The translations under genes were made by a program, and so were the position numbers. From assembly GCF_003952485.1 (NCBI RefSeq), contig NZ_CP034447.1, positions 310,001 through 374,000 of the forward strand: 64,000 bases of DNA. The letters run 5' to 3'. Under the pieces are notes generated by a model. The model made no database searches and had not been told where the DNA came from. It worked only from the letters and a program-made list of their open reading frames with translations. This document shows, piece by piece, positions 1,935-21,143 of the stretch. Source of the DNA: Mesorhizobium sp. M1E.F.Ca.ET.045.02.1.1 (GTDB taxonomy: Bacteria > Pseudomonadota > Alphaproteobacteria > Rhizobiales > Rhizobiaceae). Numbering within the stretch: position 1 is the first letter of the stretch; each line of letters begins with the position of its first letter.

Positions 1935-2225
1935 CCTTATACGATGAGCGCATCTATCCGCTGATGCGCATCTGGTTCTTCGAGCGCGAGCGTTTCGATG
2001 AGGAATATTCCCGTCTGCGGGCCGGGTGGGTACGTGACAAACCCGATGAATGCCAGCCTGATTTGTTTGCTTGTTGATGTAACTTTGACCTCTTGCGAAT
2101 AAGCTTTGACCGGACTGGCAAATGATGCCCATTGGATTTTTATCGGGCATGTATTGTGCGCTGGCTTGTCAATTGAACAAGGAACGGCGAACCTTGCTCC
2201 GCCGTTTCGAACCTAGAGCGATATC
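1935..2225 (+). other. Junction region with a short unidentified coding fragment
   Basis: From about 1935 to the TGA at 2075-2077 one frame reads DERIYPLMRIWFFERERF and continues to end in CQPDLFAC. It looks protein-like but has no start and was not recognised. It is joined directly to the FAD-protein remnant and marks the boundary of the defence island. In 2078-2225 no gene was seen. Confidence 0.35.
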
Positions 2226-3222
2226 TTGCGCCCAAACTACGCCGTCCAGCTCACCGCATTGCCCAACGAACGTCTCGAAGCCTTTGTCAACGATTGGCTT
2301 GCGAACCGTACGAAGGACTACAACTCACACGAGCGTTGGTCCGGCACCGGCGATATGGGACGCGATGTCGTGGCTTACGTCACAGATCAGCGGCATGAAG
2401 GCCCTTGGGACAACTTCCAGTGCAAGCAACTCGGTGCCCGTCTATCGGAAAAGGCGGCGTTTGTTGAGCTGGGCAAAATCTTCATGCACGCAGCGAAGGG
2501 TGAGTACACGCTGCCGCGCTCCTATACGTTCGTCGCCCCTCGAGGGGTTGTGCGCAACGTTCAGGCCTTCATTGCACATCCGGAACGCTTCAGGCAGGCC
2601 TTCCTCGATCGGTGGGCCACCGACATAGCCGGGGAGTTGGTCGAGAATGCAACCGTCCCTTTGAGCGAGGAGATCCGCTCGGCAATAAATGCTTTCGACT
2701 TTACCCAGGTATTCTCTGGACGCCGTCCGTCTCGTCGATGACAGCCACGCGAAGACTGTGCTCGTGAAATGGTTCAACGATGATCCGGGACCTTCGCCGC
2801 TTGGCGTGGCACCTGACCAGCTGCAAGATCACGAATCTGCTTACATCAGTCAGCTGGTCGATATTTATGGCGAGCGCGCCGGATCAAAGTTCGAGAACCC
2901 GGCTGCGGTTCTACAGGACGCTCGGTGGGGCACCCATTTGCGTGATCAGCGAACTCGGTACTTCGACGCGGCCGAGTTCGATCGTTATTATCGTGACTCG
3001 ACCCCTCCGGACTATCTTTCGACGTTCAAGGATGAGGTTTATCACGGGGTTTCGGATGTCTACACGGAGTCCAACGGTGACGGCCTGGATCGTGTGACAA
3101 GGGTGCTGTCGCAGGCGGCTACCATCCAAGCTTCCGGGGTGTTACGACGCCACGCGCGGGTGCAGGTCAAACAAGGTACCTGTCATCATTTCGCGAATGA
3201 GGGGCGGCTTCCGTGGAAGTGA
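2226..3222 (+). pseudogene. ABC-3C system effector with nuclease-like N-terminus (frameshifted)
   Basis: First gene of an ABC three-component system. The first frame (TTG at 2226) has GDMGRDVVAYV followed by NFQCKQLG, the D...QxK pattern of restriction-endonuclease-like (PD-(D/E)XK) nucleases. The second frame, readable from about 2689 to 3222, carries the C-terminal domain that couples such effectors to the ABC partners and ends GTCHHFANEGRLPWK. The two join at about 2705-2715 with a one-base loss, restoring a roughly 330-residue protein. No better start exists because an in-frame TAG lies just upstream. It overlaps the next gene by 10 bases. The family assignment is from memory of ABC-3C proteins. 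As written it is broken. Confidence 0.65.
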
Positions 3223-3728
3223 TCAGCGAGGGACGGCAACCGAGTCATCCTTTCAACAGCACCCTCGAGACCGGCATCCGAGCGGTGATGCTGTTGGAAG
3301 CATTTTATCCGCGTCAGTGTGATCTGATCGAAATGACTTGGCTGGACCACTTGGTCGTTCATACGGCTGACCTCGATGGAGAGGACGTGCCCCCCAGTCT
3401 CCATCCGGACTTGCCGAATCGCACCGGTGAACTCTTCGTTCGTCGTCAGCTGGTGGAGAAGAGCTTGCGCATCATGCAGCAGGTGCATCTCGTTGACGTC
3501 GTGGAAACAGACCTTGGCGTCACGTTTGTCGCCAGCGAAGATGCGCCAACCTACCTAGACCTGCTTCAGTCCGACTATTCGATGGCACTCAAAGAGCGTG
3601 CCCGCTGGATTGCCCAGCGCTTTGCTGGAATGGCGACGGTCGAAATCAAAGCTGTGATTGAGGCCAAGATCGGCCGCTGGACCGCCGAATTCCGCGCAGA
3701 TCACGCCCCCACCGGCAGTAGCGCATAA
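3213..3728 (+). CDS. ABC-3C system middle component
   Basis: A 171-residue protein that begins at a GTG inside the end of the effector gene; its stop overlaps the next start (TAATG). The opening PSHPFNSTLETGIRAVMLLE is typical of the small alpha-helical middle components of ABC three-component systems, which bridge the effector to the SMC/RecF-like ATPase. Position, size and translational coupling all fit. It is the only gene of the three that is intact. The family is predicted to work in antiphage or anti-plasmid defence; no biochemical role is visible in the sequence. Confidence 0.7.
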   Translation: MEVISEGRQPSHPFNSTLETGIRAVMLLEAFYPRQCDLIEMTWLDHLVVHTADLDGEDVPPSLHPDLPNRTGELFVRRQLVEKSLRIMQQVHLVDVVETDLGVTFVASEDAPTYLDLLQSDYSMALKERARWIAQRFAGMATVEIKAVIEAKIGRWTAEFRADHAPTGSSA

Positions 3729-5594
3729 TGGCGAGCGGCATCACGATTCGTCACCTGGTTTTCACAGGACCATCAGTCGCGCCGGCTGAACTGTCGTTCA
3801 ACGATGGCCTCAACATAGTTTACGGAGCCTCCAACACCGGCAAGTCGTTTACGACCAAGGCGCTAAACTTCATGCTGGCAGCGACCAAGGAATTGCCCAA
3901 AACTGAGGAAATCACGCACTACGATGCTGTTTGGCTAGGACTGACGCTCTCTAGCGCCCGAGACGTCACACTTTATCGGGCTACAAAGGGCGGCGCGTTC
4001 CGTGTGCACGATGGGATGATCAAGAATACACCCTCTGCGGCGGGGGCCATCCTTCAAGGTAAATTCGACGCCAAGCGAAGCGACAACGTTTCATATTTCC
4101 TCCTGGAGACGCTTGGCCTTGCGAACAAGGTAATCGTCAAAAGCGCGAACGCGGAAAAAGATACTCTCTCGATCCGCTTGCTATCTCCGTACGTCGTTGT
4201 GTCGGAGGAAGACATCATTTCCGAGAGAAGTCCCGTCCTCTATTCTGGAATTCCCAGTCAGCGGACGTTTGAACGGAACTTGTTCCGTCTGCTTCTAACC
4301 GGCAACGACGATGGCGCGGCTGTTACCGTTGCAGGTAAAAAGGAGAAAAGTGTCGCCCGAACTGCAAAGGTTGAGTTGGTCGATGAGATGATCGCTCAAC
4401 TTGATGAGGAGATTGGCGAGGGTGGGCCGACGCGTGAGGAGCTCACCGAACAGATCAGAAAGATCGAAGGATCCCTAGGCTCCCTGCATGACAACTTGCG
4501 TCAGGCTCAAAACAATCTTGACAGCCTTGTGACCGAGCGTCGGCAGCTTGTGGAAACCCAACGCGACCTGGTTCCTCGATTTACGGAACTCGAAGTGACG
4601 CTGCAGCGCTTCGGCCGTCTTAGTGAGGTCTACAAGTCCGACATTGCCCGGCTACAGGCTTTGGAGGAGGGCGGATTCATACTGGTCACTATGGCGGAAC
4701 GCGATTGTCCGGTCTGCGGGGCGCCGCCTGCGGTCCAGCGGCACAATCATGCCGCAGATGAGATCGCCCTTGCTCACAGGGCTGCTGCCGCCGAGGTGAG
4801 GAAGATTCAGATTGAGCAGCGTGAACTAGGTCAGACGATAACATCGCTTGAGGCCGAGGCAACGGGCTTGCGAAGCAGGTCTGCAAAGTTGTCGGACGAG
4901 ATTGATCGTGCTGGGAAAAGAATAGAGGACGCTCGGCCCAAAGAAATCGCTGCACGTCACCTCTACGAAGAACTCTCTGCCACCAAGGCACGGCTTGATC
5001 GAGCGGAAGACCTTTACGAGAGAAGGGACCGTCTCGTGGTTCGTCGATCCCAGATCGAAGAAGGTTTCTGAGGGCAAGGCAGACAAACTCGACGTGGGTG
5101 TGGATAGCACAATTGCCTACACATTCGGAGAGGTCGTGCGAGAAGTATTGACGGCTTGGAAATTTCCACAAGCCGACCGCGCGCAGTTCGATATTGAAAC
5201 GAACGATGTTACCATCGGAGGTAAGCCCAGGTCGGCGAACGGAAAAGGCGTCCGGGCCATCTTGCATGCCGCATTCAATGTTGCGGTGCTTCTCTTCTGC
5301 CGGCGCCGAGATTTGCCACATCCCGGCTTTTTGGTTCTAGACACACCGCTTCTCACATATCGCGAGCCGATGAAGAGCAAGCACGGCGAGCTTTCAGCCG
5401 ACGAGGAAGAACTTAAGAAAACAAGCCTTGCGACGCACTTCTATGAACATCTCGCTGGCCTGAAAGACCTGGCGCAGATCATCATAATTGAGAATTCCGA
5501 CCCCCCGAACGGAATTCGGCCTCTAGCCAAAATTGAGACCTTTACCGGCGTGGACGGTGAAGGCAGATACGGTCTTTTCCCTAAGCTGGGTTAG
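3728..5594 (+). pseudogene. ABC-3C ATPase, DUF3732/RecF-SMC-like (frameshifted)
   Basis: Two overlapping frames make one ATPase: 3728-5071 and a second frame that carries on to 5594, joining near 5060. The first holds the P-loop GASNTGKS (residues 33-40), a long heptad-rich helix and a zinc-hook-like CPVCG near residue 327. The second carries GVRAILHAAFNVA and the Walker B-like FLVLDTPLL, the hallmark of DUF3732 proteins. The restored protein would be about 620 residues, normal for the family. Such ATPases are thought to sense nucleic acid and license the effector. As sequenced, the protein stops before Walker B, so it should be inactive. Confidence 0.75.
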
Positions 5595-5739
5595 CCCCAA
5601 CTCAAACCCGTGCACGTACAGTTGACGCACGAGGATACCTCGTGGCGGCACCGGGCATTGCGAACAAAACAAGAATCTGGGATCGTCCAAAGTGATAGCT
5701 TGGGATGATTCGAACTGTGACTGCCACCGCTACATGGAT

Positions 5740-6203
5740 AAGGTTCGGCAAGCCGCTGCTCAAATAACGCCTTCAGCGCCTCATCCAGCCGCGCCGTCGC
5801 CTCGCTCACCGTCGAGGCCGAAAAGGAATGGCCGCACAGCTCTTCGGTGATCGCCTTGACCTTGCGGGTTGACACGCCTTGCACGTACATCTCGACCAGC
5901 GCCGATACCAGTCCCTTCTCCGAGCGCTGGTAGCACTCGAACAAGGAGAACCGGCCGACCCGATCCTGCGGAAAGCGAAGTTCCAGGACCCCAACCCGCG
6001 TCACAAGCTTGCGCTCATAATAGCCGGACCGGTAACCAACCCGCTCCGCCGTTCGCTCGCCTTTCTCGGCCCCGATCGCCTCCGTCATCTCGGCTTCCAA
6101 GCCTCCTGCACGACAGTCTGCAAAACTCTGCGAAAGGCGTCCTCATCTGACAACAGCAACGCTTTCAACTCGCCTCTGCTCAGTCTAACGTCTCGCTTGG
6201 TCA
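5740..6203 (-). pseudogene. IS256-family transposase, N-terminal remnant
   Basis: The minus-strand frame starts at an ATG at 6203 (MTKRDVRLSRGELKAL) and after a one-base shift near 6105 reads LEAEMTEAIGAEKGER, then SALVEMYVQGVSTRKVKAI and FSASTVSEATARLDEAL. This is the N-terminal DNA-binding half of a Mutator-type transposase. Similarity stops at AEPYP, just where the catalytic domain would begin, so the DDE domain is gone. The sequence from 5595 to 5739 was not recognised. The remnant sits directly behind the ABC-3C ATPase gene and separates it from the restriction-modification genes. Confidence 0.8.
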
Positions 6204-6415
6204 TGGCACTTGCCCTTCCACGGGAATCGGTGATCGCAACGTCACCAGCGTGCCATGGCCGCCCCTCGCCTCAGAGTAAGGGCTGTTCTCTCTCCAGAGC
6301 TTTTTGCAGAACCTTCAGGATACTATCTAAGCAAGCTGCCCCACAGTTTTTAGTAAACACTTCAGTGTTGTTTGACGACAATGCCGGCGAGAGAGACGCA
6401 ATGCATGTTGGCGCA
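6204..6415. other. Non-coding stretch behind the IS256 remnant
   Basis: No gene, terminator or RNA was recognised. It lies between the 5' end of the IS256 remnant and a methyltransferase fossil, and probably contains the IS end. Confidence 0.3.
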
Positions 6416-6576
6416 TTTTATGAATTTTTTGCGGGGCGGGATGGCGCGGGCCGGATTGGGTGTGGTCTTGCCTATTCGCCTTGATCCGAGAAAAGCGGCG
6501 GGCTACGCCGCTAACTTGGGCGGCGAGATTGACGATCGGCGACGTCGCTAAGGTCGATGTCGCCCAATTCCCCTGA
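6416..6576 (+). pseudogene. Fossil N-terminus of a DNA cytosine methyltransferase
   Basis: The plus strand reads FYEFFAG, then after a shift MARAGLG, then GYAANLGGE and after another shift LTIGDVAKVDVAQFP. These match in order residues 4-65 of the intact methyltransferase encoded on the other strand at 7377-8579 (FYEFFAGGGMARAGLG ... ELTIGDIRQVKIDKLP). It has two shifts and no catalytic part. The residues differ enough to show a related but distinct gene, not a recent copy. Confidence 0.7.
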
Positions 6577-6667: not shown

Positions 6668-7447
6668 TCAGTGTGGAATCGCAGTTCCGTCCCCGTCCAA
6701 GTCTCCCTTTGTGTCCTCTTCGTCCTCGGCTCCTTCCTCTACTAGGCTCTCGCCGCCGAGTTTCTCGAAGCGTCTTTCCGCCAGCCAGTTCATGCGCCTA
6801 GTCTGGGTCACGAGCACACGTCGAAGGCCCATCTTTACCTCGCGTTCGGAGATGACCTGCGACAGCTTGGACACGATGAGCGCCCGACGTGCCAAACGGG
6901 TGTCCGGATGGCCGCGCAACTCCTGGATCCGGTCGGAGACAATCGAACCACGCATGGAAGGCGGCTCGGTGATTTCTACAGTCGGCGCCGGCGGGTCCTT
7001 CTCATTCAGGATCGCCTTGAACTTGCTCTCGTTGCGTAGCCGAGTGAAGACAAGGTGCTCGAGCGCGTTTAGGTGCGCATTCGCCGTTTTAAAGTCAGAG
7101 TGCTTCGACCCCACGGCCTCGAACTGCGGCAGTGGCCAGACCTGTATCTCCGCCACCTCAAAAGGGTCCAACACCGACATCGCCACAGCGTCGGTGCGCT
7201 GGTTCGTGAGGTGGCGCCCGACGCGGCCGGAAACCTTCTCCTTGGTCTGGCCGACGTAGATCGGCTCCCCGTCGTAGTCGTAGAACGCGTATACTCCCCA
7301 GCGATAGCTGCCGACGGGACGCTTCTCACCCGAGGGGTCGTCGTAGAGAGTTTCGCGGAAGAATTTCCGAATGGCCTTACGCAGCTCGTCCGTTTCGAGC
7401 GGCGGTGTTTTCGTGCTGTCTGTTGTGCTGTTCGGGAGTTTCGCCAT
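6668..7447 (-). CDS. GIY-YIG nuclease family protein, probable restriction endonuclease
   Basis: A 259-residue protein with a GIY-YIG nuclease core: GVY at residues 51-53, YVGQ at 64-67, conserved arginines at 75 and 78, and the metal-binding glutamate in NALEH (E130). GIY-YIG restriction enzymes such as Eco29kI pair with a C5-cytosine methyltransferase, and this gene overlaps the 3' end of one by 71 bases. The chosen ATG has a GAGGGA Shine-Dalgarno 5 bases upstream; longer readings would begin deep inside the methyltransferase gene. The inferred role is cleavage of unmethylated DNA at the partner enzyme's site. The C-terminal 100 residues are charged and unassigned. The recognition sequence cannot be predicted. 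Confidence 0.75.
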   Translation of the reverse strand: MAKLPNSTTDSTKTPPLETDELRKAIRKFFRETLYDDPSGEKRPVGSYRWGVYAFYDYDGEPIYVGQTKEKVSGRVGRHLTNQRTDAVAMSVLDPFEVAEIQVWPLPQFEAVGSKHSDFKTANAHLNALEHLVFTRLRNESKFKAILNEKDPPAPTVEITEPPSMRGSIVSDRIQELRGHPDTRLARRALIVSKLSQVISEREVKMGLRRVLVTQTRRMNWLAERRFEKLGGESLVEEGAEDEEDTKGDLDGDGTAIPH

Positions 7448-8579
7448 GTTGTCCCTCGGTCGCTCGGAGGACCGGCTCGAACAGGTGCTGCGCCAGAAAG
7501 CGAACGACCGGAACTGCCACCCCGTCCCCTGTAAGGTGGTAGCCTTCATTGTATGCGCGAGGCAACTTGTAGTCGTCCGGAAGTCCCATGAGCCGTGCGG
7601 TCTCCCTCGCGCTGATCAAGCGCGACCGGACACGGGCGCCGTCCACGACCATGATCGTCTGCCGGGACGACCCTCCCGTCGGTGTGCGCAGGCAGCCCGC
7701 GATCTCGTCGAAGCGCACTTCCGCTCTTACAGCTTTCCCGTTAGGATTCTGCGGTCTCGTCCGCTTGTAGACGGTCCCCACCATGCGGCGCCCGGCCCGC
7801 TTCGCGGCCTCAAGCTTCGCGATATTCACCGGAGACATCTGGGCGATCAGCCGCGCGGTCTGTTCCGTGGTGTGCCATTCGACGCTCGAGGGATTTTCTT
7901 CGACGAGGTCGGCGAAGCATGTGTTGCGGACAGGCGGAGAAGGAAGATTCCACCACAGCCACCGCTTCCGCGCCTTTGCAGGAATCCTTGCGACCGCGTT
8001 TTGAAGGCCGCGGGAATGGAAGGGCGCCACCGGCTCCGGCGATAGCATGGCCTCGTGCACCTCGAAATCCCCCCGGACGCCGATGACGAAGAGCCTTGGG
8101 CGACTCTGCGGGACAAAAAGTTTTGCGTCGATGACCATAGCGCCATAGCGGTAGCCCGCTTTCGCGAAAGTCTCGGCGATCGCCACGAAGTCAGCGCCTC
8201 CGTGGCTGGTCAGAGTCCCGTTAACGTTTTCCAGCGCGATGATCTTCGGACCGCGGGCCTCTGCGATCAGGCCGTTCATAATCGTCCAGAACGGATAGAA
8301 GGTTCCCGAACGCTCGCCTTTCAATCCAGCGCCGCCTCCGGCAAGCGACAGATCCTGACAGGGGAATGACCCCCAAGCTAAGTCGGCAGTGCCGGGGAGC
8401 TTGTCGATCTTGACTTGGCGAATATCACCGATAGTCAGCTCGCCGCCGGTCCCCCAGTTGACCTGATACGTCAGGCCTTTTTTTACATCGAAATCGTTAG
8501 CGAAGGCACACTGCCACTCTGGACCAAGTCCGGCACGCGCCATCCCTCCGCCGGCGAAAAACTCATAAAATGTCCGCAT
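7377..8579 (-). CDS. DNA (cytosine-5-)-methyltransferase
   Basis: A 400-residue C5 methyltransferase with ordered motifs: motif I FYEFFAGGGMARAG at the N-terminus, motif IV GSFPCQDLS with nucleophile Cys74, motif VI ENV (117-119), motif VIII VPQSRPRLF and a C-terminal GDGVAVPVV (motif X). The start ATG at 8579 follows a GGGGAG site and agrees with motif I at residue 4. It transfers a methyl group from AdoMet to a cytosine in a specific site. It is divergent from vsr and overlaps the GIY-YIG nuclease gene, giving a type II restriction-modification unit with mismatch repair. The 96-base gap to vsr probably holds both promoters. Confidence 0.92.
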   Translation of the reverse strand: MRTFYEFFAGGGMARAGLGPEWQCAFANDFDVKKGLTYQVNWGTGGELTIGDIRQVKIDKLPGTADLAWGSFPCQDLSLAGGGAGLKGERSGTFYPFWTIMNGLIAEARGPKIIALENVNGTLTSHGGADFVAIAETFAKAGYRYGAMVIDAKLFVPQSRPRLFVIGVRGDFEVHEAMLSPEPVAPFHSRGLQNAVARIPAKARKRWLWWNLPSPPVRNTCFADLVEENPSSVEWHTTEQTARLIAQMSPVNIAKLEAAKRAGRRMVGTVYKRTRPQNPNGKAVRAEVRFDEIAGCLRTPTGGSSRQTIMVVDGARVRSRLISARETARLMGLPDDYKLPRAYNEGYHLTGDGVAVPVVRFLAQHLFEPVLRATEGQHGETPEQHNRQHENTAARNGRAA

Positions 8580-8675
8580 GATCTCCCCGTGATTCGCGCG
8601 TAATGCTAGCATACCCCACGCCGAAAATGGTTTACGGTTTGTTCTCATCCGTAACATGCTCACCATGAATTTTCC

Positions 8676-9092
8676 ATGACTGCGAACGTTGATCCTGCCA
8701 GAAGCCGACAAATGTCCTTGGTCCGGTCAACCGGCACAAAACCGGAGATGGCCGTCCGCCGCCTCGCGCACGCACTCGGCTATCGCTTCAGGCTGCACCG
8801 CAAGGACTTGCCCGGGAAGCCCGACTTGGTGTTCTCCCGGCGACAGGCCGTCATCTTCGTACATGGGTGCTTCTGGCACGGACATGGGTGCAAGCGCGGC
8901 GCGCGTATGCCGAAAAAGAACCGGGAATACTGGTCGGCGAAGATCGCGAGGAACGTCGAGCGCGATGCCGCGAGCGTCGCAGCGATCGAGGCCGACGGAT
9001 GGCGGGTCCTAGTGATCTGGGAATGCGAGATGAAAGACGCGGACCGCCTTGCTCGCCGACTCGCCGACTTCCTGGGCAAGCATGCTTCTTAA
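8676..9092 (+). CDS. vsr: Very short patch repair endonuclease
   Basis: A 138-residue Vsr endonuclease, the usual length. Catalytic features align with the E. coli enzyme: Glu24, Asp50 in GKPDLVF, and His63/His68 in VHGCFWHGH; the threonine before the first histidine is valine here, a common variant. Vsr nicks beside T:G mismatches made when 5-methylcytosine deaminates, so it protects sites modified by the divergent cytosine methyltransferase. The pairing is classical. The gene ends at 9092 with nothing co-transcribed behind it. Confidence 0.93.
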   Translation: MTANVDPARSRQMSLVRSTGTKPEMAVRRLAHALGYRFRLHRKDLPGKPDLVFSRRQAVIFVHGCFWHGHGCKRGARMPKKNREYWSAKIARNVERDAASVAAIEADGWRVLVIWECEMKDADRLARRLADFLGKHAS

Positions 9093-9858: not shown

Positions 9859-10767
9859 TTACCTACACTCCAGTGAGAAGGTGTTATCCACGCGCAGTGC
9901 GCTTGGAATCCACATATCGGGGGTCGGGCGAAATTCAGCGGAATCGGTCCATTGGAACGTCGGCGATGGATCAGGAGCCAACGCTTGGAGCGCGCCGCTG
10001 CTAAGTTCACGGACCTCCTCTACATGAGCGGCTATGATGGTTCGTTCCACCATTACACTTGACGAAAATATCACCTGAATGAGTCGCCATTCGGACCCGA
10101 ACTTTGCTGCTTTGTCGAATTCGTTGCGCGACACGAATACACGGTCTGCGGTGGCTCTTACGCACGCCTTCACCTCCAAGCGCTCGGTAGCAGAGGCCCG
10201 ACGGTTCTCAATGTCGTAGCCGTACCAATCAGAGAGGAGCGCCACATGCACCGGTGAGTATCTCTCATAACGAAGGGCCGACATGATTGCGAGTTCGCCA
10301 GCATTGCCGAGCATCTTTCTGCGCTCGTCAAAGGACGCACGTGTTAGCCGATGATGTATTTCGACGAGCAGCGGTTCCAGGTCCGGCCCAAGCCAGGAAA
10401 GGGCTTCTAGGTCACTGTCGGGAATGAATTCTGGGGCCAGACGCCCGTCGACAATTGCAGCTCCAATCCACGCCAGAGGGCATCTCTGCAGCAAGAGACG
10501 GGCAATGCCCAACAGACTATGTCGATCAGCCTTGCTGTCGAAAGCGGCAAGTACGGGATTGATCGCGACGACATCGGTTATGCTAGCGAGGTTGATATCT
10601 ACGAGCAGCCTCGCGGTACCTAGGACGTCAGTTGAGGCGGCCATGATGGTCGACTTCCCGCTCGCGGATATCACCCAAGAGTTGAAGTCACCTGAAGGCC
10701 TCAGCCGCGCACTGTAGGCCAGCAGGAAGGCAGCATGACAGCGTCCGCGACTTGGCAACTCATACAT
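9859..10767 (-). CDS. PD-(D/E)XK nuclease-like protein (DUF3883-type C-terminus)
   Basis: A 302-residue protein, last gene of a four-gene operon; its ATG overlaps the helicase stop by 8 bases. The N-terminal 150 residues are helical and unassigned. From residue 154 the sequence reads GNAGELAIMSALRYE, then GYDIEN and LEVKACV, giving Glu158, Asp185 and Glu198-x-Lys200: the active-site layout of the PD-(D/E)XK fold as in DUF3883 domains. VSRNEFDKAAKFG downstream resembles the family's ysRNE segment. It is probably a DNA nuclease working with the helicase. The exact family was not confirmed, and it could be a structure-specific nuclease instead of a site-specific one. Confidence 0.65.
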   Translation of the reverse strand: MYELPSRGRCHAAFLLAYSARLRPSGDFNSWVISASGKSTIMAASTDVLGTARLLVDINLASITDVVAINPVLAAFDSKADRHSLLGIARLLLQRCPLAWIGAAIVDGRLAPEFIPDSDLEALSWLGPDLEPLLVEIHHRLTRASFDERRKMLGNAGELAIMSALRYERYSPVHVALLSDWYGYDIENRRASATERLEVKACVRATADRVFVSRNEFDKAAKFGSEWRLIQVIFSSSVMVERTIIAAHVEEVRELSSGALQALAPDPSPTFQWTDSAEFRPTPDMWIPSALRVDNTFSLECR

Positions 10768-12652
10768 CTATGGTTCCGACGTGTGCGGCTACGGCCTGCC
10801 AATCATCCTCGAACGCAGGTGCACCGCCTTCGCCCTCATCTGGAGAAGGTAGTGAGATCTGGACTAGGCCGGGATCATCCATCAAACGGGAAAGCGCCCT
10901 GACCTTGTCGTGAAGCCTTCCGTCAACCGTATTGTCGATGGTGTTCGAGCTGATGAGTAGCGTGAAGCGCGTTTTTACATCCGCCGACAGCCCAAGCCTG
11001 TGAATGCGATCCTGGCTCTGCAGGAAGTGGCCCGCATTGAACGTCCTATCCAGGAACACAGCGTTGTGACACCAGTGATGGAGGCTGATGCCCTCGCCGC
11101 AGGCTGCAGGATTTGCCAGGAGCGCAACGCAGTGGGCATCATGTCGGAACCGCCGAAATTCATTCTCGCGCGTTAGGTCGCCAGGGGGAGCACCGTCGTC
11201 GGAGGGAACCCCTCCATGCACTATTGCCGGCTGATATTGCGCAAGCATTCGAGCCAACACCTTTAGGTTGCGCACGAAGTTGGACCAGATCAGGACCTTC
11301 TCGCCGCGTTCGGCTGCTGCCGCTACAATGGAAAGCACTTGTTGGTATTTCCACGGCGTCTCAAAGTTTTTGTAGCTTTGTAGCAGGTTGACGAGCGGCT
11401 CGCTGCTCGACAACTCGAGCGGCGGGTGAAGGAATCCTGGATCATCACTCTCATCCGAACCGGCCGTTAACAGCATGGGGTTTGTCGCGGCCTCGAGCAG
11501 GTACATTACTATGCGGCCAAGGCGCTGCATCTCGTGCCGACCGCGGTCGGGAAGCGAAAAAGTGGCGCGGTAGCGACCCACGAGCGTATCATAGATCGCG
11601 CTTTGAATGGGTCCCATTTGTCTGCGGATAACCTCGAACGTTATGGGAGGCAGCTCCAGCTCGCTCTTGGGAGTTCGAACGAAGTACCGCGTAATCGCTG
11701 CGTGAGTCTCGCCGAGAACATTCGGATCGCGCCCCAGCCTTTCGATGTAAGCAGACCTCGGAAGAATCTGGCGATCCTGGCCCGGGTATAGGAACTTCAC
11801 CAGAGCCACTAGATCGTGCGCGCCTTGGGGGGCCGGCGTACCAGTTAGCACGTCTCGGCGATGAGCCGCATAGGCCAAATCCAACACAGCACGACCATGC
11901 ACCCCCGAAGCGCCGCGCTTCACACGATGGGCTTCGTCGAGCACAACCTTGGTAGCCCCATTCGCCACGAAGGCTCTGATAATGTCATAATCGCTTGCGA
12001 CGCGATTGTAATTTGAGAGCAGGATCTCCGTGTCTTGCGGGATAATTGTTTCGGGACCCCCAAAGATTACAACGCGCGGTGGCTTTTTGAAGCAAGCGAC
12101 TGCATCCTCATCCCAGGCTCCGAAGGCGGCGATTGGCGCAACGACCATAAGACGGTCGATACTTCCTCGAGCGCGACCCAAAGCAAATGCCGCCAGCGCC
12201 ACCGTCGTCTTACCCGCTCCAGGAACCGAAAAGTCCGCAGCATGCGGCAGACGCATGAGGCGGGCGAGATTTCTCAGTTGAAAGGGCTTCAAATTCCTTT
12301 TGAACCCGGCGGCCTCAAGCTCGGCCGCGAGGGCCTCAAGCTCGGTTTCGCTTGCCTCACCGGCTTCGATCGCCACGGAACGGGCACGGCGATCATCAGC
12401 CATTAATCGCAACTGTGATGTGAGGGTCGGTCCTAACTCAACCCGCTCTGCAAACACTGCCCGAATGTCGCGCAGGACATCGAGTTCCGCCATGAACACA
12501 TCCGGGTGCACCACTGACTGCCGTGCCGATCCAGTGAGGATGCCGCGTGCAAAGGCTTCCTGCAGCCGGGCCCAGGCACCAGGATTCGTATCGTCCAAGC
12601 GATCGACGACGACCGTCGGACGGTCCTGCCGATAGAGCTCGGCACGGATCAT
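10760..12652 (-). CDS. SNF2-type superfamily 2 helicase/translocase
   Basis: A 630-residue SF2 ATPase. Motifs in order are Q-like FKRNLKPFQLRNLARLM (about 117-133), Walker A VPGAGKTT (143-150), Walker B box DEAH (239-242), motif III LTGTPAP, motif IV KVLIWSNF and motif VI QSQDRIHRLG near residue 565. The RIHRLGL form and RecA-like spacing are those of SNF2 translocases. Unlike chromatin remodellers it has a roughly 115-residue N-terminal extension and an acidic C-terminus. It starts inside the ParB-like gene's stop (4-base ATGA overlap) and overlaps the nuclease gene, so the three are translationally coupled. It probably moves on DNA to deliver the nuclease. Confidence 0.88.
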   Translation of the reverse strand: MIRAELYRQDRPTVVVDRLDDTNPGAWARLQEAFARGILTGSARQSVVHPDVFMAELDVLRDIRAVFAERVELGPTLTSQLRLMADDRRARSVAIEAGEASETELEALAAELEAAGFKRNLKPFQLRNLARLMRLPHAADFSVPGAGKTTVALAAFALGRARGSIDRLMVVAPIAAFGAWDEDAVACFKKPPRVVIFGGPETIIPQDTEILLSNYNRVASDYDIIRAFVANGATKVVLDEAHRVKRGASGVHGRAVLDLAYAAHRRDVLTGTPAPQGAHDLVALVKFLYPGQDRQILPRSAYIERLGRDPNVLGETHAAITRYFVRTPKSELELPPITFEVIRRQMGPIQSAIYDTLVGRYRATFSLPDRGRHEMQRLGRIVMYLLEAATNPMLLTAGSDESDDPGFLHPPLELSSSEPLVNLLQSYKNFETPWKYQQVLSIVAAAAERGEKVLIWSNFVRNLKVLARMLAQYQPAIVHGGVPSDDGAPPGDLTRENEFRRFRHDAHCVALLANPAACGEGISLHHWCHNAVFLDRTFNAGHFLQSQDRIHRLGLSADVKTRFTLLISSNTIDNTVDGRLHDKVRALSRLMDDPGLVQISLPSPDEGEGGAPAFEDDWQAVAAHVGTIDV

Positions 12653-13968
12653 CCGCGTGCCTCGAGCTTGCTCACTTCGGCCTTGAGCGCGGCCACCTTG
12701 GTTTGGAAGTCGGCTTCATTCCATCCGTCAAAGCTACGCGCCCGTTCAAGCGCAGCAGCTGCGCGGCCAACCTGCTCCTTGGCGGCGGCAAGACGGCTCA
12801 ATGGAGCCACGAGCGCCTTTGCGTCCTTAGAATCCTCATCGGCTTCCTGTGCCGCGACGGCGATGGCAGCCCCTACGGAAGCAATTAGATCGGATACGAC
12901 AGCGCTCTTGCCATCTGCGAGAGTCACTATCTCTTCGCTGCGCTTGCGCGCGAAGAAGGCGAGGATATCGGAAAGGTCCTCTTCCTGTGCTGCATCACCG
13001 AGGGCGTCATCGAGAACATCGCCGCCATTGTTGGGCACATCATGCCTGATGGCACAAAGCAGCGGTGCGATTGTCGGATCCGATTCCAATTCCTGCCTGA
13101 CTAGTGCGGCGGCATCCGGCCGCTGAAGGTGGCGAAGATCGCGGTAGTTGACCCCGGTCAGCGTGCCAAGGAAGTAGGCGCCCCGAACGGAATTGGCCTC
13201 AGCCTTAGGCTTAGTTCGGATGTGCCTAGTGAGTTCCTCAAAAGCCGACTCGTTCTCATCAAAGTCGGCGTGGTGGCGAGTGCCGTCTGACAGTGCCACC
13301 AGCTGATGCAGCTGCTGCAGCTTTTCATACTGCGCCCGAACCTTGGGTACATCCTTGTGCATCCTCGCCGCGACTCGATCCCAGTTCTGGGCTTCGCGGT
13401 TGAACAGTTCCTCGATCAAGAGCGCTTCATTGACCCACGAATAGTCTTCGCGGAAGTCACGTGCGATCTGCAGCTCAGTCTCGAGATCGACCAGTTCATC
13501 CATGGTCGCATCGGCCGGAAGGACGAGGCAGCGGACATATCGAGAAGGCGCATGCTGATTGTCTAAATAGAGGCTACGAAGCGCAGCGGACCTACGGTTG
13601 CCGTTTACAAGAACGCCCTCCGCAGTAGCTACGGCCGGCTCCTGCTGACCACGTTCTCTCAGATCAGCCTTGAGATCATAGAAGCCCGGCTGAGATTTCA
13701 GGATACGAAGCTGTGCCGCTTGTGCTTCCGACCCCATCGGGTCCGCCGAAAACAGGTCTGGGCGCCCCTTCGTCTCAATCTCTCGCATCTGTTCAGCCTT
13801 AGTCCGGTGGTTCAGAGTGGAGAGCCGCACCCACGTCACCTCCAGGTCCACCAGCGGCAGTTCGCGATCTGGCCGCGACCAGGCGGCCAGCAGCGCGCGT
13901 CGTTTCGACGAGCTCTGGCGCGCGACAAGGTGTTGGACTCGTTCCTGATCTAACACAGGGTTCATCAT
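12649..13968 (-). CDS. ParB/sulfiredoxin-like domain protein
   Basis: A 439-residue protein with a ParB N-terminal-like signature, EGVLVNGNRRSAALR, at residues 117-131. This is the GxRRxxA nucleotide-binding box of ParB/DndB/Srx-fold proteins. Before it, LKADLRERGQQEPAV has the form of the ParB lead-in strand. The C-terminal half is helical with an alanine- and glutamate-rich coiled region to the end. It is not a chromosome-partition ParB: no ParA or parS is nearby and the middle HTH is not evident. In this operon it may read DNA modification or nucleotides to control the helicase. It sits 2 bases after the upstream gene and overlaps the helicase start. Confidence 0.7.
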   Translation of the reverse strand: MMNPVLDQERVQHLVARQSSSKRRALLAAWSRPDRELPLVDLEVTWVRLSTLNHRTKAEQMREIETKGRPDLFSADPMGSEAQAAQLRILKSQPGFYDLKADLRERGQQEPAVATAEGVLVNGNRRSAALRSLYLDNQHAPSRYVRCLVLPADATMDELVDLETELQIARDFREDYSWVNEALLIEELFNREAQNWDRVAARMHKDVPKVRAQYEKLQQLHQLVALSDGTRHHADFDENESAFEELTRHIRTKPKAEANSVRGAYFLGTLTGVNYRDLRHLQRPDAAALVRQELESDPTIAPLLCAIRHDVPNNGGDVLDDALGDAAQEEDLSDILAFFARKRSEEIVTLADGKSAVVSDLIASVGAAIAVAAQEADEDSKDAKALVAPLSRLAAAKEQVGRAAAALERARSFDGWNEADFQTKVAALKAEVSKLEARG

Positions 13969-13970
13969 TT

Positions 13971-14786
13971 TTAGCTCCTGAAGGTGGTCAACCGTCCCGG
14001 ACCAAACCGGGAGGCGACTGTGGTCCTGATGCCGCGGACGCCTTGGTGAAACCCGATGTACCCGGTCAAAACACTTGCATTGCCTGCATCGACATTGAAC
14101 GAAGAGAGCAGAACTGCCGGGAATCGCCGTTGGCGGCGACCGTGCCAGTTGAAGTCAGGTCCTTGGCCCCGCTCCGGCATGATCCAGATACACGGAGGAG
14201 GAATGCGGTTTCCGCCAATCTCCACTGCCCGGCCCATCTTCGGACACGGTCGAAGGTCTGACCCGCAGAGGTCATTGTGGAAGATGATGCCATCAAGCGT
14301 ATCTGGTGCATCCGAGAAAAAGCGACGGCGGAGTCGGTTGACCCCTTTGAAAACATGTTCTCCGGGTTCCGAGGCCAGACTCGGGCACAACCACCAAAGG
14401 TAGGTCTCGACCGCCCATGAGGGAACAGACCATGCAACGCTGCTGTGAGCGCCGTCGGGACACCCCTTCTGGATGATGGCTACGTTACCAATGTCAGGCA
14501 CGGCCAGTTGGTAAACCGTATCCTTTCCGTAGACTGGGCGAACCACACTGGCTATCGCGCCCACAGCCAACATATGATCGAAGATCATACCCAGAAAGTC
14601 ACGCCGATCGGCATTGCTGGCGGCCGTGCTGCCGCGAAGCTTCTCGATCGCGGCAGGGAGGGCCAATCTAAACTCGCCCGCCGAGAGTCCTCGCTGATAA
14701 AGGTACTGCGGGTCATCGGCGATGCCGCTGACGATTTCGGCAACGCGATTTACCACCTCCTCCGGCGGTGCCCCCGATGGCGACAT
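13971..14786 (-). CDS. Unknown protein, first gene of the ParB-helicase-nuclease operon
   Basis: A 271-residue protein not recognised. Its core has an aromatic segment (AVETYLWWLCPS) followed by GVNRLRRRFFSD, DGIIFHNDLCGSD and a proline-rich PPPCIWIMPE. Scattered acidic and lysine residues could form a nuclease site, but no standard motif can be asserted. The ATG at 14786 is the first possible start because an in-frame TGA lies 13 bases before it; a GGAGGAGG run at 14757-14764 raises the chance of a slightly later start. Only 2 bases separate it from the ParB-like gene, so it belongs to the same unit. Next to a methyltransferase/Vsr cluster, a restriction-enzyme role is possible but unproven. 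Confidence 0.55.
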   Translation of the reverse strand: MSPSGAPPEEVVNRVAEIVSGIADDPQYLYQRGLSAGEFRLALPAAIEKLRGSTAASNADRRDFLGMIFDHMLAVGAIASVVRPVYGKDTVYQLAVPDIGNVAIIQKGCPDGAHSSVAWSVPSWAVETYLWWLCPSLASEPGEHVFKGVNRLRRRFFSDAPDTLDGIIFHNDLCGSDLRPCPKMGRAVEIGGNRIPPPCIWIMPERGQGPDFNWHGRRQRRFPAVLLSSFNVDAGNASVLTGYIGFHQGVRGIRTTVASRFGPGRLTTFRS

Positions 14787-15629
14787 GGTGCAGCTTCTTC
14801 ACCAGCCATTAATCCCCCCATATCGCCGGTATTTAACGCGCCGGCCGACGCGATGTGTTCAAGCGTTATAATGATGTGAGGGACGGACTGCAAAGAGTCG
14901 GCCTCAACAAAACGATGTTCGCGGCTATTATTTGTCAGGAGTTCTGGCTTTCGCGCCCGCCTCTCTCATTGACAACGGGTACACTCTGAACCGATGCGGG
15001 AGAGAGCACTAAGCGCGGGCCGCAGCACTGTCGCTTTGCAGTTAATGATGAGAGTTGCTTGTCAACGCTTTCAGTATGTTAGCTATACACCTAATTTGAG
15101 AATGTGCACTTAATTTGATGATGGAGCCCGGCCATTGGCATTTAATTTGAGAATCAACGTCAACACCTTATCGGGCTAGTATTTCTCGAAAACGTCTTAT
15201 GGAATTCAATGGTTCAAGGCTTTCGGAAAATACGATTGAAATTCGAGAATCCGAACTTCAATATTCCTAAATTATATGCCAATCATGGTCGAAACTACTG
15301 CTTTCTTACAGTTAACTGCCAAAGCGACAGATTTTGATGTCAACGCGGCAACTGACTCATGGAGCGTCAGATAATATACCCTGCTTGCCTATAGCAGAAT
15401 GCGACGTGGTTCTGGACTCAACGTTTACGCTTTCAGAGCTCACCATTTTTGAGATGGCAGGCTTACAACGGGTGGTTTCTTGGTCAAGCGGAGATTGCAG
15501 AATACGAGGCGGTTCTAAGCTGCCCATATGCACCGACTCCGCTACGACCCTGCGCCAATGCGGAGGCTGAGGGCACTGAGATGGTTCATCTTAGGCTAAT
15601 CGCAGCAACTACCATTTTGGAGGGATAAT
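14787..15629. other. Long AT-rich intergenic region upstream of the ParB operon
   Basis: About 840 bases without a credible gene. It holds the promoter of the minus-strand ParB-helicase-nuclease operon and that of the plus-strand HNH gene, and three copies of a 13-base motif (15091-15154). Composition is visibly more AT-rich than the neighbouring genes. Confidence 0.4.
15091..15154. repeat. Three direct copies of a 13-base AATTTGA motif
   Basis: CTAATTTGAGAAT at 15091-15103, TTAATTTGATGAT at 15110-15122 and TTAATTTGAGAAT at 15142-15154. Spacing is 19 and 32 bases. Such clusters occur at operators and at the ends of some integrated elements; the role here is unknown. Confidence 0.55.
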
Positions 15630-18308: not shown

Positions 18309-18443
18309 CCAGCAATGACGCCTGCAAAGGTTAGGCGGCACTGGGCGCAGCTTTCCATATAATATTTTACGGTTCTCGCTTCCGTATTTGGTTGCACATA
18401 GCAGCCCAATTAAAGAATAAGAACAATCGGCAGGGAGATGGGA

Positions 18444-21143
18444 ATGGTCACGAACTACCAGGATCAGATCGAACGGGTTTCGAGCGAAAGCCTCGACGTT
18501 TTCGAGAGAATTTCCAAGGACGCACGTTCGGCGCTTGGCGAGCCCTACTCCACCGGCCCGACGGCGCTCGCCAGCGTGAACACCTTTACGTCAGGCGAAG
18601 CCGTCAAGGCCCTGGGCAACGTCGACAGCGCAAACCGCCGTGCTCTCGAACTGCTCGCCAAAGAACCGGCCATCGCCAGGGTGGTAGCACGCCAGGACGA
18701 TGGAAAGATCGTCATCTATTACATCTGCCGTGGAACGGCTTCAGGAAGACCCGGCGGAGACAAACGCTTCGCTGGACGCAATTCGTTGATGGGCCGGCTG
18801 GCGTCCTTGGATGTGGGCGACGATTTCGATATCCGAACCCCTGGTGGCGTTCAGTCTGTCGAGATCATCGAGAAGGCGATCCTTCATCCTCATCAGCGCC
18901 AGGGCCAGTGGGACTCGCGTAACTCCATTCTGGAGGGCGAATCCTACGGGCCCATTACCGTCATCTCCATGCTCGATGCACTCGCCGTGCATATTGCCGT
19001 CGGGGAAGATAGCTCCATCCTCGACAGTATTTTGGCTATCGATGAGCAAGCAACCAACATCATTGAAGGCATCCGGCGCAGTGTCGTCACGAAGATGGGC
19101 CTGCGTGACCAACCGATCCTGGATCGCTATCAGGACGAGATTTTCCGGTTGCCCCTCAACACTCAGTTGCTGATTATAGGACCGCCCGGCACGGGCAAGA
19201 CCACGACCTTGATCCGGCGTTTGGGACAGAAGGTCGATCGTATCTATCTTGATGACGATGAACGGCGCTTGACCGACAACAGCAGTGCCGACAATGCCGT
19301 GGATCACTCTCACAGTTGGCTGATGTTCACTCCCACGGACCTGCTCAAGCAGTATCTCAAGGAGGCCTTCGCGCGCGAAAACATTGCTGCGCCCGACCAG
19401 AAGATCGCGACATGGTCAAGCTTTCGGCAAGGCCTGGCGCGAAACAGGTTTCGCATCCTCAAAGCTTCTGACGGCGGCGGACCTTTCATCATGAAGGAAG
19501 GTGAATCCTATGTCCTTCCTGACGTGCTCAACAGGCAAACAGCTTGGTATGAGGATTTTGTAAGCTGGCAGGCCGGCGACTACTGGGAGGATTTAGGCGG
19601 TGCAGCCGACCTCCTTGAAAAGAATGGAAACTCGGAAACCGCGCGCCTCGGGCGGAGGCTTAGAGAAGCCGTCGCGGAAGCGCCTACCATTTCGCTTCCT
19701 CGCGCCTTACTGGAACTGGTGAGCGTTTCCTCTGACGTTGAAGGTTTCCTCTCCAGCATGAGGGAAGAAACCGACACCGCGTTGCGGCGGCGCCTCAATA
19801 CCCAGGTCAATCAGGACCGAAAATTTCTCGAAGGCCTGGCGGCATTTATCGACGGGCTCAATACGCCCGACGACGACAATGACGAGCAAGACGGCGACGA
19901 GGACGAAGATGTCCAGAACCAGGCACCTCGTCCGCGCATGGCGGCAACTGCGGCAGCCTATATGCGAAATCTGCGCAGCCAGGCCCGGGCGCGCTTTGGT
20001 CGACGTACATTGGGCCGAACCACGCGATCTGGCCGTATTGCGGAATGGATAGGCGACCGCACTTTATCCGAGGACGAGCTCCGTGCGATAGGCGAGAGCC
20101 TGCAAATCCAGACGGCGCTCCGAAAGTTCACCAATCCTATCCGGAGATACTTGAACGGCATACCGGCAAGGTATCGTCGGTTCCGGCGTCTGCGCCAGTC
20201 GGAAGGTGCCTGGTATGTCGCAGCTCCTATTCCCGTGAGTGATGTCGACCCTCAAGAGGTGGATATCCTGTTGTTGTGTACGATGCGTACGGCGTCGAGC
20301 CTGGTCCAGGACCGCACAGTTCGACGCAATATCGATCAGCCGGCTTACGGCATTCTAAAGGACTTTCAGAGCGTCGTTCGCAATCAGATCATGGTCGATG
20401 AGGCAACAGATTTTTCGCCGATAACGCTTGCCTGTATGGGCGCACTCAGCAATCCGGCTATTCAGTCATTTTTTGCCTGCGGCGATTTCAATCAGAGGAT
20501 AACAAGTTGGGGAAGCAGGAGTGCCGACGAGATGCGTTGGGCTTTCCCCAAAATCGACCTCAAGCCGATCCAGGTTTCATACCGTCACACGCGGCAGCTC
20601 AATCGCTTGGCATCGGAGATTGTCCGTCTGTGTTCCGGCGAGACTGTCGAAGCGGTTCTCCCTAAAAACGTCGAGAACGACGGTTGGGCTCCAGTCCTGG
20701 GCGTTGACCTCACTGGGCGTGATGAGACCGTATCGTGGCTTGCCGCTCGCATCATTGAGATCGAGCGGTTGACGAAGCCCCTCCCTTCCGTCGCAATCCT
20801 GGTGAATGACGAGGCGGAAGTTGGGCCACTTGCCGATAGATTGAAAACTGCGCTTGCAGATCAGAATCTCAACGTGATCGCGTGCTACAAAGGCCAGTCT
20901 GTTGGGCAGGACAGCGACATCAGGATTTTCGATGTTCAGCACATCAAAGGCCTGGAATTTGAAGCCGTGTTTTTTGTTGGCATCGACACCTTGGCGACAC
21001 TGCGCCCCGAGCTGTTCGACAAATTTCTCTATGTGGGCGCAACCCGTGCCGCGACCTATCTCGGGCTTACATGCGTCGGAAGCGCGTTGCCTAAGAAGAT
21101 CGGCTCCCTTCAAAGTGACTTTGTTCAAGGCTGGAGCACCTAG
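18444..21143 (+). CDS. UvrD-like superfamily 1 helicase with GreA/GreB-like N-terminal segment
   Basis: An 899-residue helicase. The ATG at 18444 is preferred to the one at 18438 because AGGGAG ends directly before the earlier one and gives 6-base spacing to the later. Numbering from 18438: a segment at about 92-150 (SLMGRLASLDVGDDF, RTPGGVQSVEI) resembles the C-terminal domain of GreA/GreB. Then come Walker A GPPGTGKTT (248-256), motif II VDEATDFSP (about 651), motif III GDFNQRI, motif IV SYRHTRQLN, motif V QHIKGLEFEAVFF and motif VI YVGATRAA. An acidic DDDNDEQDGDEDED stretch lies in the middle. It stands alone, with the Argonaute fossil upstream and an IS downstream, and is probably a defence or repair helicase. 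Confidence 0.85.
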   Translation: MVTNYQDQIERVSSESLDVFERISKDARSALGEPYSTGPTALASVNTFTSGEAVKALGNVDSANRRALELLAKEPAIARVVARQDDGKIVIYYICRGTASGRPGGDKRFAGRNSLMGRLASLDVGDDFDIRTPGGVQSVEIIEKAILHPHQRQGQWDSRNSILEGESYGPITVISMLDALAVHIAVGEDSSILDSILAIDEQATNIIEGIRRSVVTKMGLRDQPILDRYQDEIFRLPLNTQLLIIGPPGTGKTTTLIRRLGQKVDRIYLDDDERRLTDNSSADNAVDHSHSWLMFTPTDLLKQYLKEAFARENIAAPDQKIATWSSFRQGLARNRFRILKASDGGGPFIMKEGESYVLPDVLNRQTAWYEDFVSWQAGDYWEDLGGAADLLEKNGNSETARLGRRLREAVAEAPTISLPRALLELVSVSSDVEGFLSSMREETDTALRRRLNTQVNQDRKFLEGLAAFIDGLNTPDDDNDEQDGDEDEDVQNQAPRPRMAATAAAYMRNLRSQARARFGRRTLGRTTRSGRIAEWIGDRTLSEDELRAIGESLQIQTALRKFTNPIRRYLNGIPARYRRFRRLRQSEGAWYVAAPIPVSDVDPQEVDILLLCTMRTASSLVQDRTVRRNIDQPAYGILKDFQSVVRNQIMVDEATDFSPITLACMGALSNPAIQSFFACGDFNQRITSWGSRSADEMRWAFPKIDLKPIQVSYRHTRQLNRLASEIVRLCSGETVEAVLPKNVENDGWAPVLGVDLTGRDETVSWLAARIIEIERLTKPLPSVAILVNDEAEVGPLADRLKTALADQNLNVIACYKGQSVGQDSDIRIFDVQHIKGLEFEAVFFVGIDTLATLRPELFDKFLYVGATRAATYLGLTCVGSALPKKIGSLQSDFVQGWST

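Follow-up and report, generated by a model that had tools for sequence, protein, structure and literature searches.

An apparently nuclease-dead relative of a type II restriction enzyme in a ParB-SNF2-nuclease cassette of Mesorhizobium: a proposed ATP-dependent restriction arm

What might be the task of four tightly packed genes in which a ParB-like protein and a SNF2-family ATPase stand between a protein of initially unknown kind and a nuclease, beside the genes of a cytosine methyltransferase (MTase) and a Vsr endonuclease? The question is raised by a 64,000-nucleotide stretch of Mesorhizobium sp. M1E.F.Ca.ET.045.02.1.1 (NZ_CP034447.1, positions 310,001 to 374,000), referred to here as the window. 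The genes are called R1, ParB-like, SNF2 and NOV (Table 1), labels coined in the present analysis. The answer favoured here, with moderate confidence, is that they encode the arm of a composite restriction-modification (R-M) locus that restricts DNA at the expense of ATP, in which R1 would recognise the site, the ParB-like protein would couple, SNF2 would translocate and NOV would cut. The proposal draws on comparison of sequences for its composition, its linkage, the apparent loss of catalytic residues from R1, and the seemingly intact nuclease and ATPase motifs.

The four subunits of the cassette

R1 had been left as an unknown protein by the first-pass annotation, and has no Pfam match at E<=1; instead, it matches the PADLOC type II restriction endonuclease (REase) model PDLC03501 (E 5e-19, profile positions 34-261 of 285). 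Type II REases of the PDLC03501 type are labelled R2 here, and R1 is 24-28% identical to the R2 rows of the alignment. The two share the lysine, KGCxDG, E132/E135, CPK and PPPC, and differ at D97 and E111, which are kept in R2 and not in R1. Within the R2 alignment, the D..ExK site shows D in 123/123, E or D in 122/123 and K in 123/123, whereas both acids are replaced, and the lysine retained, in 137 of 137 aligned R1 sequences. Homology to the type II REase family extends over the core without the D..(D/E)xK residues, and R1 is, on these alignments, a distant paralogue of R2 from which the catalytic acids appear to have been lost. The two also differ in their company: R2 is found as the solo partner of an MTase as well, whereas R1 is bound to ParB-SNF2-NOV. 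A sequence search of the PDB with the R1 profile as query returned nothing meaningful, and Foldseek found no significant match for the R1 model; because the VIA rows with REase folds were tied with unrelated rows, the predicted structure of R1 lends weak support.

It might be argued that R1 has kept type II REase activity at a displaced active site, and that ParB-like, SNF2 and NOV boost it or degrade the DNA it has cut, in line with the REBASE pairing of a restriction enzyme and a helicase protein. K115 and D119 are indeed invariant in R1, with E135 99% and D97 97% acidic, and the REBASE-based Table 4 of PMC8709438 places two neighbouring “restriction enzymes” with V and H genes at a chromosomal locus, one of which would correspond to R1. 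Against a cutting R1 stand the absence of both D..ExK acids from all 137 aligned sequences, a like loss of acids in two unrelated REase types that accompany the same chassis (described below), and the full active site of NOV, and this reading is considered unlikely.

The evolutionary company of R1 is consistent with a subunit of the cassette. Distance-matrix correlations over 23 sequences per gene, all of them inflated by shared ancestry, were 0.94 for R1-SNF2, 0.87 for R1-ParB, 0.89 for R1-NOV and 0.93 for SNF2-NOV; since the value for R1-MTase was 0.54, R1 can be said to travel with the cassette.

The ParB-type box noted in the first-pass annotation was found again as NGNRR, invariant across 40 aligned orthologues. 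The AlphaFold2 model of the ParB-like protein (pLDDT 87.4) gave nine Foldseek matches at E<=1e-3, all of them to ParB, Noc or KorB, which identifies the ParB N-domain fold and a helix-turn-helix (HTH). Alone, the protein has no convincing Pfam match, and 20 of the 40 orthologues weakly match ddrB-ParB (PF18763; best E 0.0023); no PADLOC model matched it, and PDB searches with a single ParB-like or NOV sequence gave nothing useful. The region that would correspond to ENxxR, the phosphate motif of ParB CTPase clamps, reads E(T/A)ELQ(I/V)A in the orthologue alignment. For this protein, a coupling or clamping role is perhaps more likely than one in sensing DNA state.

The two remaining subunits look active as judged by motif conservation. 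SNF2 matches PF00176 (SNF2-rel_dom, E 1.5e-16) and PF00271 (Helicase_C, 4e-6), and the complete SF2 motif set first reported holds up, with motifs I, II, III, V and VI present in 23 of 23 copies and variation at four positions. NOV matches PF13020 (NOV_C/DUF3883, E 4.5e-7), and its E..D..ExK nuclease site, likewise noted at first pass, comprises E158, D185, E198-x-K200 and E216, invariant in all 28 aligned sequences, eight of which come from divergent cassettes. Its PADLOC matches are weak (PDC-S36 1.3e-6, TmtA 4e-4). The NOV match of locus L003 is split in two pieces; separately, on a Mesorhizobium mediterraneum plasmid (L001, 16165-17112), an IS481 transposase gene interrupts the NOV nuclease gene.

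On re-check, the four minus-strand open reading frames (ORFs) lie where first placed, with a gap of 2 bases followed by overlaps of 4 and 8 bases. The claim that all four are intact was not confirmed, as the conserved start of R1 is in a different frame from the remainder. The start peptide M..EEAAPCRHRG lies just upstream of the called R1 ORF, so that the gene is divided between two frames (window 14700-14830, minus strand). In P0001, R1 is 99% identical to that of the window, begins with M..EEAAPCRHRG and continues in a single frame throughout, and the R1 of L006 is 100% identical over residues 5-271 and differs from the window at the point of the frame break. Intact R1 copies therefore exist in close relatives, and the break in the window genome may be a sequencing error or a true mutation.

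Linkage to a methyltransferase, Vsr and a second endonuclease

The window carries all seven genes of a larger locus, namely those of a GIY-YIG enzyme, a C5 MTase and Vsr together with the four-gene cassette (Table 1). The MTase ORF as called begins at a TTG that may be upstream of the real start.

Table 1. Coordinates in the window of the cassette and the adjoining R-M genes
Feature	Coordinates	Strand	Description
R1 (gene 1)	13971..14786	minus	271 aa; apparently nuclease-dead type II REase paralogue, proposed specificity subunit
ParB-like	12649..13968	minus	439 aa; ParB fold, HTH region, long C-terminal helices; proposed coupling/clamp subunit
SNF2	10760..12652	minus	630 aa; SNF2-family SF2 ATPase, proposed dsDNA translocase
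NOV	9859..10767	minus	302 aa; NOV_C/DUF3883 PD-(D/E)XK nuclease, proposed cutting subunit
Vsr mismatch endonuclease	8676..9092	plus	TIGR00632 7e-45, above cut-off
C5 cytosine MTase	7377..8711	minus	TIGR00675 7.8e-42; PF00145 1.3e-45
GIY-YIG REase, probable cognate of MTase	6668..7549	minus	PF01541 2.4e-5

When genome contigs were scanned with the R1 profile, 27 loci from other genomes came up, and their partners were tabulated by tblastn; L006 and L007 are closely related to the window, which makes the count of independent loci slightly smaller. Hosts include Mesorhizobium, Rhizobium, Sphingomonadales, Gammaproteobacteria, Streptomyces, Nocardia, Nonomuraea and a Verrucomicrobiales metagenome-assembled genome. 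The neighbourhood check bears out the set: the order R1-ParB-SNF2-NOV is seen in Alpha- and Gammaproteobacteria and in Actinobacteria, and its start, R1-ParB, on a short Verrucomicrobiales contig. As this order recurs in distant phyla, it is not due to chance. ParB lies directly 3' of R1 in 26 of the 27 loci, with the contig of L032 ending there; SNF2 follows in 25 (the contigs of L031 and L032 end), and NOV in 23, with contig ends in L008, L031 and L032, and one contig, L023, that continues without NOV. Only the first 50 residues of NOV are present in L007.

An MTase is found in 25 of the 27 loci, the contigs of the other two (L007, L014) stopping within NOV or shortly after it. A Vsr match is found in 21; there is none in L010, L013 or L017, or in the contig-limited L007, L014 and L032. 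This linkage argues that the MTase, Vsr and GIY-YIG genes are part of the same unit, and the initial description of the cassette is amended accordingly: a defence cassette with a motor and a nuclease as effector still fits, whereas “stand-alone” does not. A plasmid search likewise found the cassette in four records. A C5 MTase and Vsr accompany it in all four, close by except on the Kozakia plasmid, where they lie elsewhere on the circle; the Mesorhizobium record is 98.9% identical, and those of Azospirillum, Kozakia and Rhizobium are 65-67% identical over 69-76% of the query.

The partner of the MTase is variable, being GIY-YIG in 14 loci, R2 in two, DUF4928 in four and none recognised in seven (L007, L009, L013, L014, L024, L031 and L032, some on short contigs). 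Among 18 aligned GIY-YIG pieces, which include two short remnants and two with a stop, Y87, R109, R112 and H113 are present in 18 and Y98, E164 and N182 in 17, site-like residues that presumably correspond to those of Eco29kI. No second REase was recognised in L013 or L024 by comparing ORFs with the queries and by eye, with family models applied to part of them; there, the cassette is therefore the only candidate restriction arm. In L017, the R2 REase beside the MTase (5692-6552, minus strand) has A for E in ExK; by this residue it may be inactive, and the cassette would then be the only working arm.

The same linkage could be taken to favour a second reading, rather unlikely in our estimation, in which the cassette would serve a type IV-like or repair function on DNA that is methylated, mismatched or already cut and R1 would recognise that state, for instance when degrading GIY-YIG products or acting with Vsr. 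Vsr is near in 21 of the 27 loci, and PMC3710099 describes a SNF2 helicase fused to DUF3883 within R-M operons. Yet six loci, three of them contig-limited, show no Vsr, and in L013 and L024 no cognate REase that could produce ends was recognised. Because it is both MTase-linked and REase-derived, R1 fits better as a sensor of unmethylated sites; R1, rather than the ParB-like protein to which the first-pass annotation gave that role, is the likely sensor of DNA state.

Probable recognition site, proposed mechanism and known systems

Within the restriction reading, the site common to R1 and the MTase is probably GGCGCC, judged from the following comparisons. In PMC8709438, nanopore sequencing found GGCGCC methylation in the strain that carries L004 and called it N4-methylcytosine (4mC), against which the MTase assigned to GGCGCC is of the C5 class. 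The paper describes two loci, on the chromosome and on pRL11, where a putative type II REase adjoins a GGCGCC MTase, and its Table 4 adds V and a “helicase domain protein” to the chromosomal locus. The pRL11 genes would be those of L004, the gene labels of the paper not being fully consistent. In L004, R2 lies beside an MTase that is 73% identical to that of the window. Fragments of R2 occur beside GIY-YIG in L012 and L033, and a fragment of GIY-YIG beside R2 in L004; these reciprocal remnants suggest replacement at the same MTase and hence a shared site. Actinobacterial MTases share 34-39% identity with that of the window at 12 of 13 loci and 52% at L026, and may therefore recognise another site. 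According to PMC10855626, R-M loci assigned CCGCGG may hold V, C and H elements; as GIY-YIG REases are also described there for CCGCGG, this site is possible for the GIY-YIG branch. The window itself holds 44 GGCGCC sites against 46.1 expected, and thus no signal of avoidance.

Complex formation, the site, translocation and cutting are steps that we infer, in part by analogy with known systems. R1 would bind the unmethylated site that it shares with the adjoining C5 MTase, and the ParB-like protein would couple R1 to the motor and may clamp the DNA. The SNF2 ATPase would translocate along foreign DNA, which the NOV_C PD-(D/E)XK nuclease would cut. Host DNA would be shielded by the methylation of the MTase, Vsr would repair the T:G mismatches that stem from deamination of 5-methylcytosine (5mC), and the GIY-YIG enzyme would cut at the shared site independently of ATP, as a second means of restriction.

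The nearest analogy is offered by CglI and NgoAVII, in which the R protein alone binds the site, its presence activates the ATPase, and ATP hydrolysis is required for cleavage (PMC4267653, PMC5737866). These systems likewise combine a 5mC MTase with separate R (recognition) and N/H (SF2 ATPase) proteins, and a cognate 5mC MTase is found with the cassette (TIGR00675, PF00145; linkage as above). Their ATPase requires the R protein together with unmethylated sites, a feature extended to the cassette by analogy. They differ in that their R protein has B3 and PLD domains, where R1 matches an REase family model.

Whether the set had already been named can be answered in part. The earlier impression that no named system has this composition holds for DISARM and Dpd, but REBASE, as two papers quote it, already has a “helicase domain protein” among the accessories of type II R-M loci. 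This “type II helicase domain protein” (H), in the parts of PMC10855626 and PMC8709438 available, resembles the cassette in setting a helicase-type gene with M, R and V genes, including the GGCGCC MTase set in the L004 strain; it differs in being a label, given in those parts without subunit composition, a role for a dead REase or a mechanism. The likeness to Dpd, DISARM and Zorya II lies in the SNF2 core (PADLOC ZorD 3e-18, DpdE 1.1e-14, DrmD 2.2e-6). Membership in these systems was rejected, as the helicase core alone matches and the partner genes differ; the NCBIfam scores are far below the cut-offs (DrmD 24.1 of 610 bits, DpdE 11 of 500 bits). A known PADLOC system was likewise rejected, the matches being confined to R1 (REase_II), the helicase core, NOV (weakly), Vsr and the MTase. 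No description of the R1-ParB-SNF2-NOV set, or of a dead REase as specificity subunit, was found in the full-text literature searched, which covers few subscription papers and little of bioRxiv.

A regulatory or maintenance module, with R1-ParB-SNF2 on host sites controlling R-M genes or plasmid upkeep and NOV as a by-product, would suit the ParB fold with HTH and the four plasmid records, but is very improbable given the strict conservation of the nuclease site in NOV and the lack of ParA within the operon in the gene orders examined, the ParA of the Kozakia plasmid lying outside it.

If the restriction reading is true, some REases annotated as cutters or as “hypothetical protein” would serve to find the target for a machine of motor and nuclease, and a mechanism would be at hand for the H proteins of REBASE. 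Additionally, a simple rule for finding such systems would follow, namely a REase-like gene without its acids beside ParB-SNF2, with the site predicted from the MTase. The cassette would be a modular ATP-dependent cutter that takes its specificity from well-studied REase folds, and the joint travel of the MTase, Vsr and two restriction arms would be explained.

Divergent cassettes and neighbouring genes

More distant relatives were sought with the ParB profile at three levels: the class (385 genomes, 8 with a match), the phylum (398 genomes, 7 with a match) and the Actinobacterial phylum to which the L019 host belongs (396 genomes, 18 with a match). These counts include the own or centre genome; 28 other genomes had a divergent match. 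Neighbourhoods were examined for 14 of these 28 (L042-L048, L053, L054 and L083-L087), G517, G691 and 12 with E of 3e-5 to 1e-3 being outside the examined set. L046 and L048, which have no SNF2 beside ParB, were dropped from the counts. An MTase adjoins in 9 of the 12 divergent loci (L042, L043, L044, L047, L053, L054, L083, L084 and, weakly, L086) and was not found in L045 (a 4.4 kb contig), L085 or L087. In 8 of the 12 (L042, L043, L044, L047, L053, L054, L083 and L086), NOV_C follows. By this gene content, the same chassis serves both C5 and N6/N4-type MTases. On a Streptomyces plasmid (L057) and on plasmids of Enterococcus relatives (L091, L092), no MTase was recognised.

Two further kinds of REase relative accompany this chassis. 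In L042, L053 and a Paracoccus plasmid (L058), a protein of 154-156 aa lies between the N6/N4 MTase and ParB, and that of L042 matches Pfam Endonuc-BglII (9.6e-7; 29.1 bits against a cut-off of 26). In HMMER alignments of the L042 protein to PDB entries, which are weak (E 0.26 for BamHI and 0.06 for BstYI), E111/E113 of BamHI stand opposite Q82/Q84, and E128/Q130 of BstYI opposite the same Q pair. We take these BamHI and BstYI residues to be catalytic. QLQ is found at the site in all three slot proteins, of which those of L053 and L058 are nearly identical. The other kind is related to Sau3AI, a REase of MutH fold that has an N- and a C-terminal domain. On a Lactiplantibacillus plasmid (L055), the gene 3' of SNF2, rather than 5' of ParB, encodes an independent protein homologous to the C-terminal domain of Sau3AI (PDB 2reu, E 3.6e-42), and only the C-terminal half of the PADLOC model is matched; L055 differs from Sau3AI in having no catalytic N-domain and in having an ATP motor. 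The nearly identical Priestia plasmids L089 and L090 encode a 512-aa MutH/Sau3AI-like protein beside SNF2, on the other strand. In an alignment with a pair of full-length Sau3AI-like enzymes, the proteins of L055 and L089 lack the two acids present in the catalytic N-domains (PD...ELK) and retain the lysine, and the L090 protein is alike at these positions. A PLD-like domain is present in the SNF2 proteins of L055 (7.2e-7) and L056 (4.5e-9), and neither L055 nor L089 gave a NOV match.

Taken together, every examined member of the three REase kinds found with the chassis (137, 3 and 3) is without catalytic acids. This suggests, tentatively and at somewhat less than even odds, a widespread class of ATP-dependent REases in which specificity subunits from retired type II REases of at least three unrelated kinds would be served by one ParB-SNF2 chassis with a NOV_C or PLD nuclease. 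The kinds other than R1 comprise six loci (three BglII/BamHI-like, and three plasmids with Sau3AI-C-like proteins), with fewer independent cases. Weighing against such a class, the specificity slot is not universal: just 2 of the 12 divergent genome loci hold a recognised dead REase, and no slot protein was recognised in L043, L044, L054 or L083, while L047 has an 887-aa Eco57I-like protein and L086 an 829-aa MTase-like protein. Were the class real, target sites would be predictable, and perhaps re-programmable, by swapping dead REases together with their MTases.

Several minor observations were made near these cassettes. In L084 (10444-11187, minus strand), a 247-aa CxxC-containing protein 5' of ParB is possibly a degenerate HNH-type REase; having neither a Pfam HNH match nor a PDB match, it is a suspicion and was not taken up as a fourth dead type. 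Enterococcus plasmids account for 52 of 71 plasmid records that match ParB-SNF2, and L091 and L092 encode an HTH protein of about 865 aa, sigma-like, upstream of ParB-SNF2. Two TIR-domain genes (2185-4097) lie near the dcm-ParB-SNF2 locus of the Priestia plasmid L089.

Among the other neighbours in the window, a 169-aa ORF adjoins the GIY-YIG gene (5591-6100, minus strand) and is, by eye, presumably a truncated IS256/mutator-type transposase. An ATPase-like 447-aa ORF and an overlapping 199-aa ORF (3728-5594) are possibly one broken gene, with Pfam matches of coiled-coil type only. Beyond the island, a 901-aa UvrD-like helicase (18438-21143; UvrD_C_2 2.3e-11) has weak matches to defence helicases. 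In L001, the genes past GIY-YIG are annotated as an ABC-three-component system.

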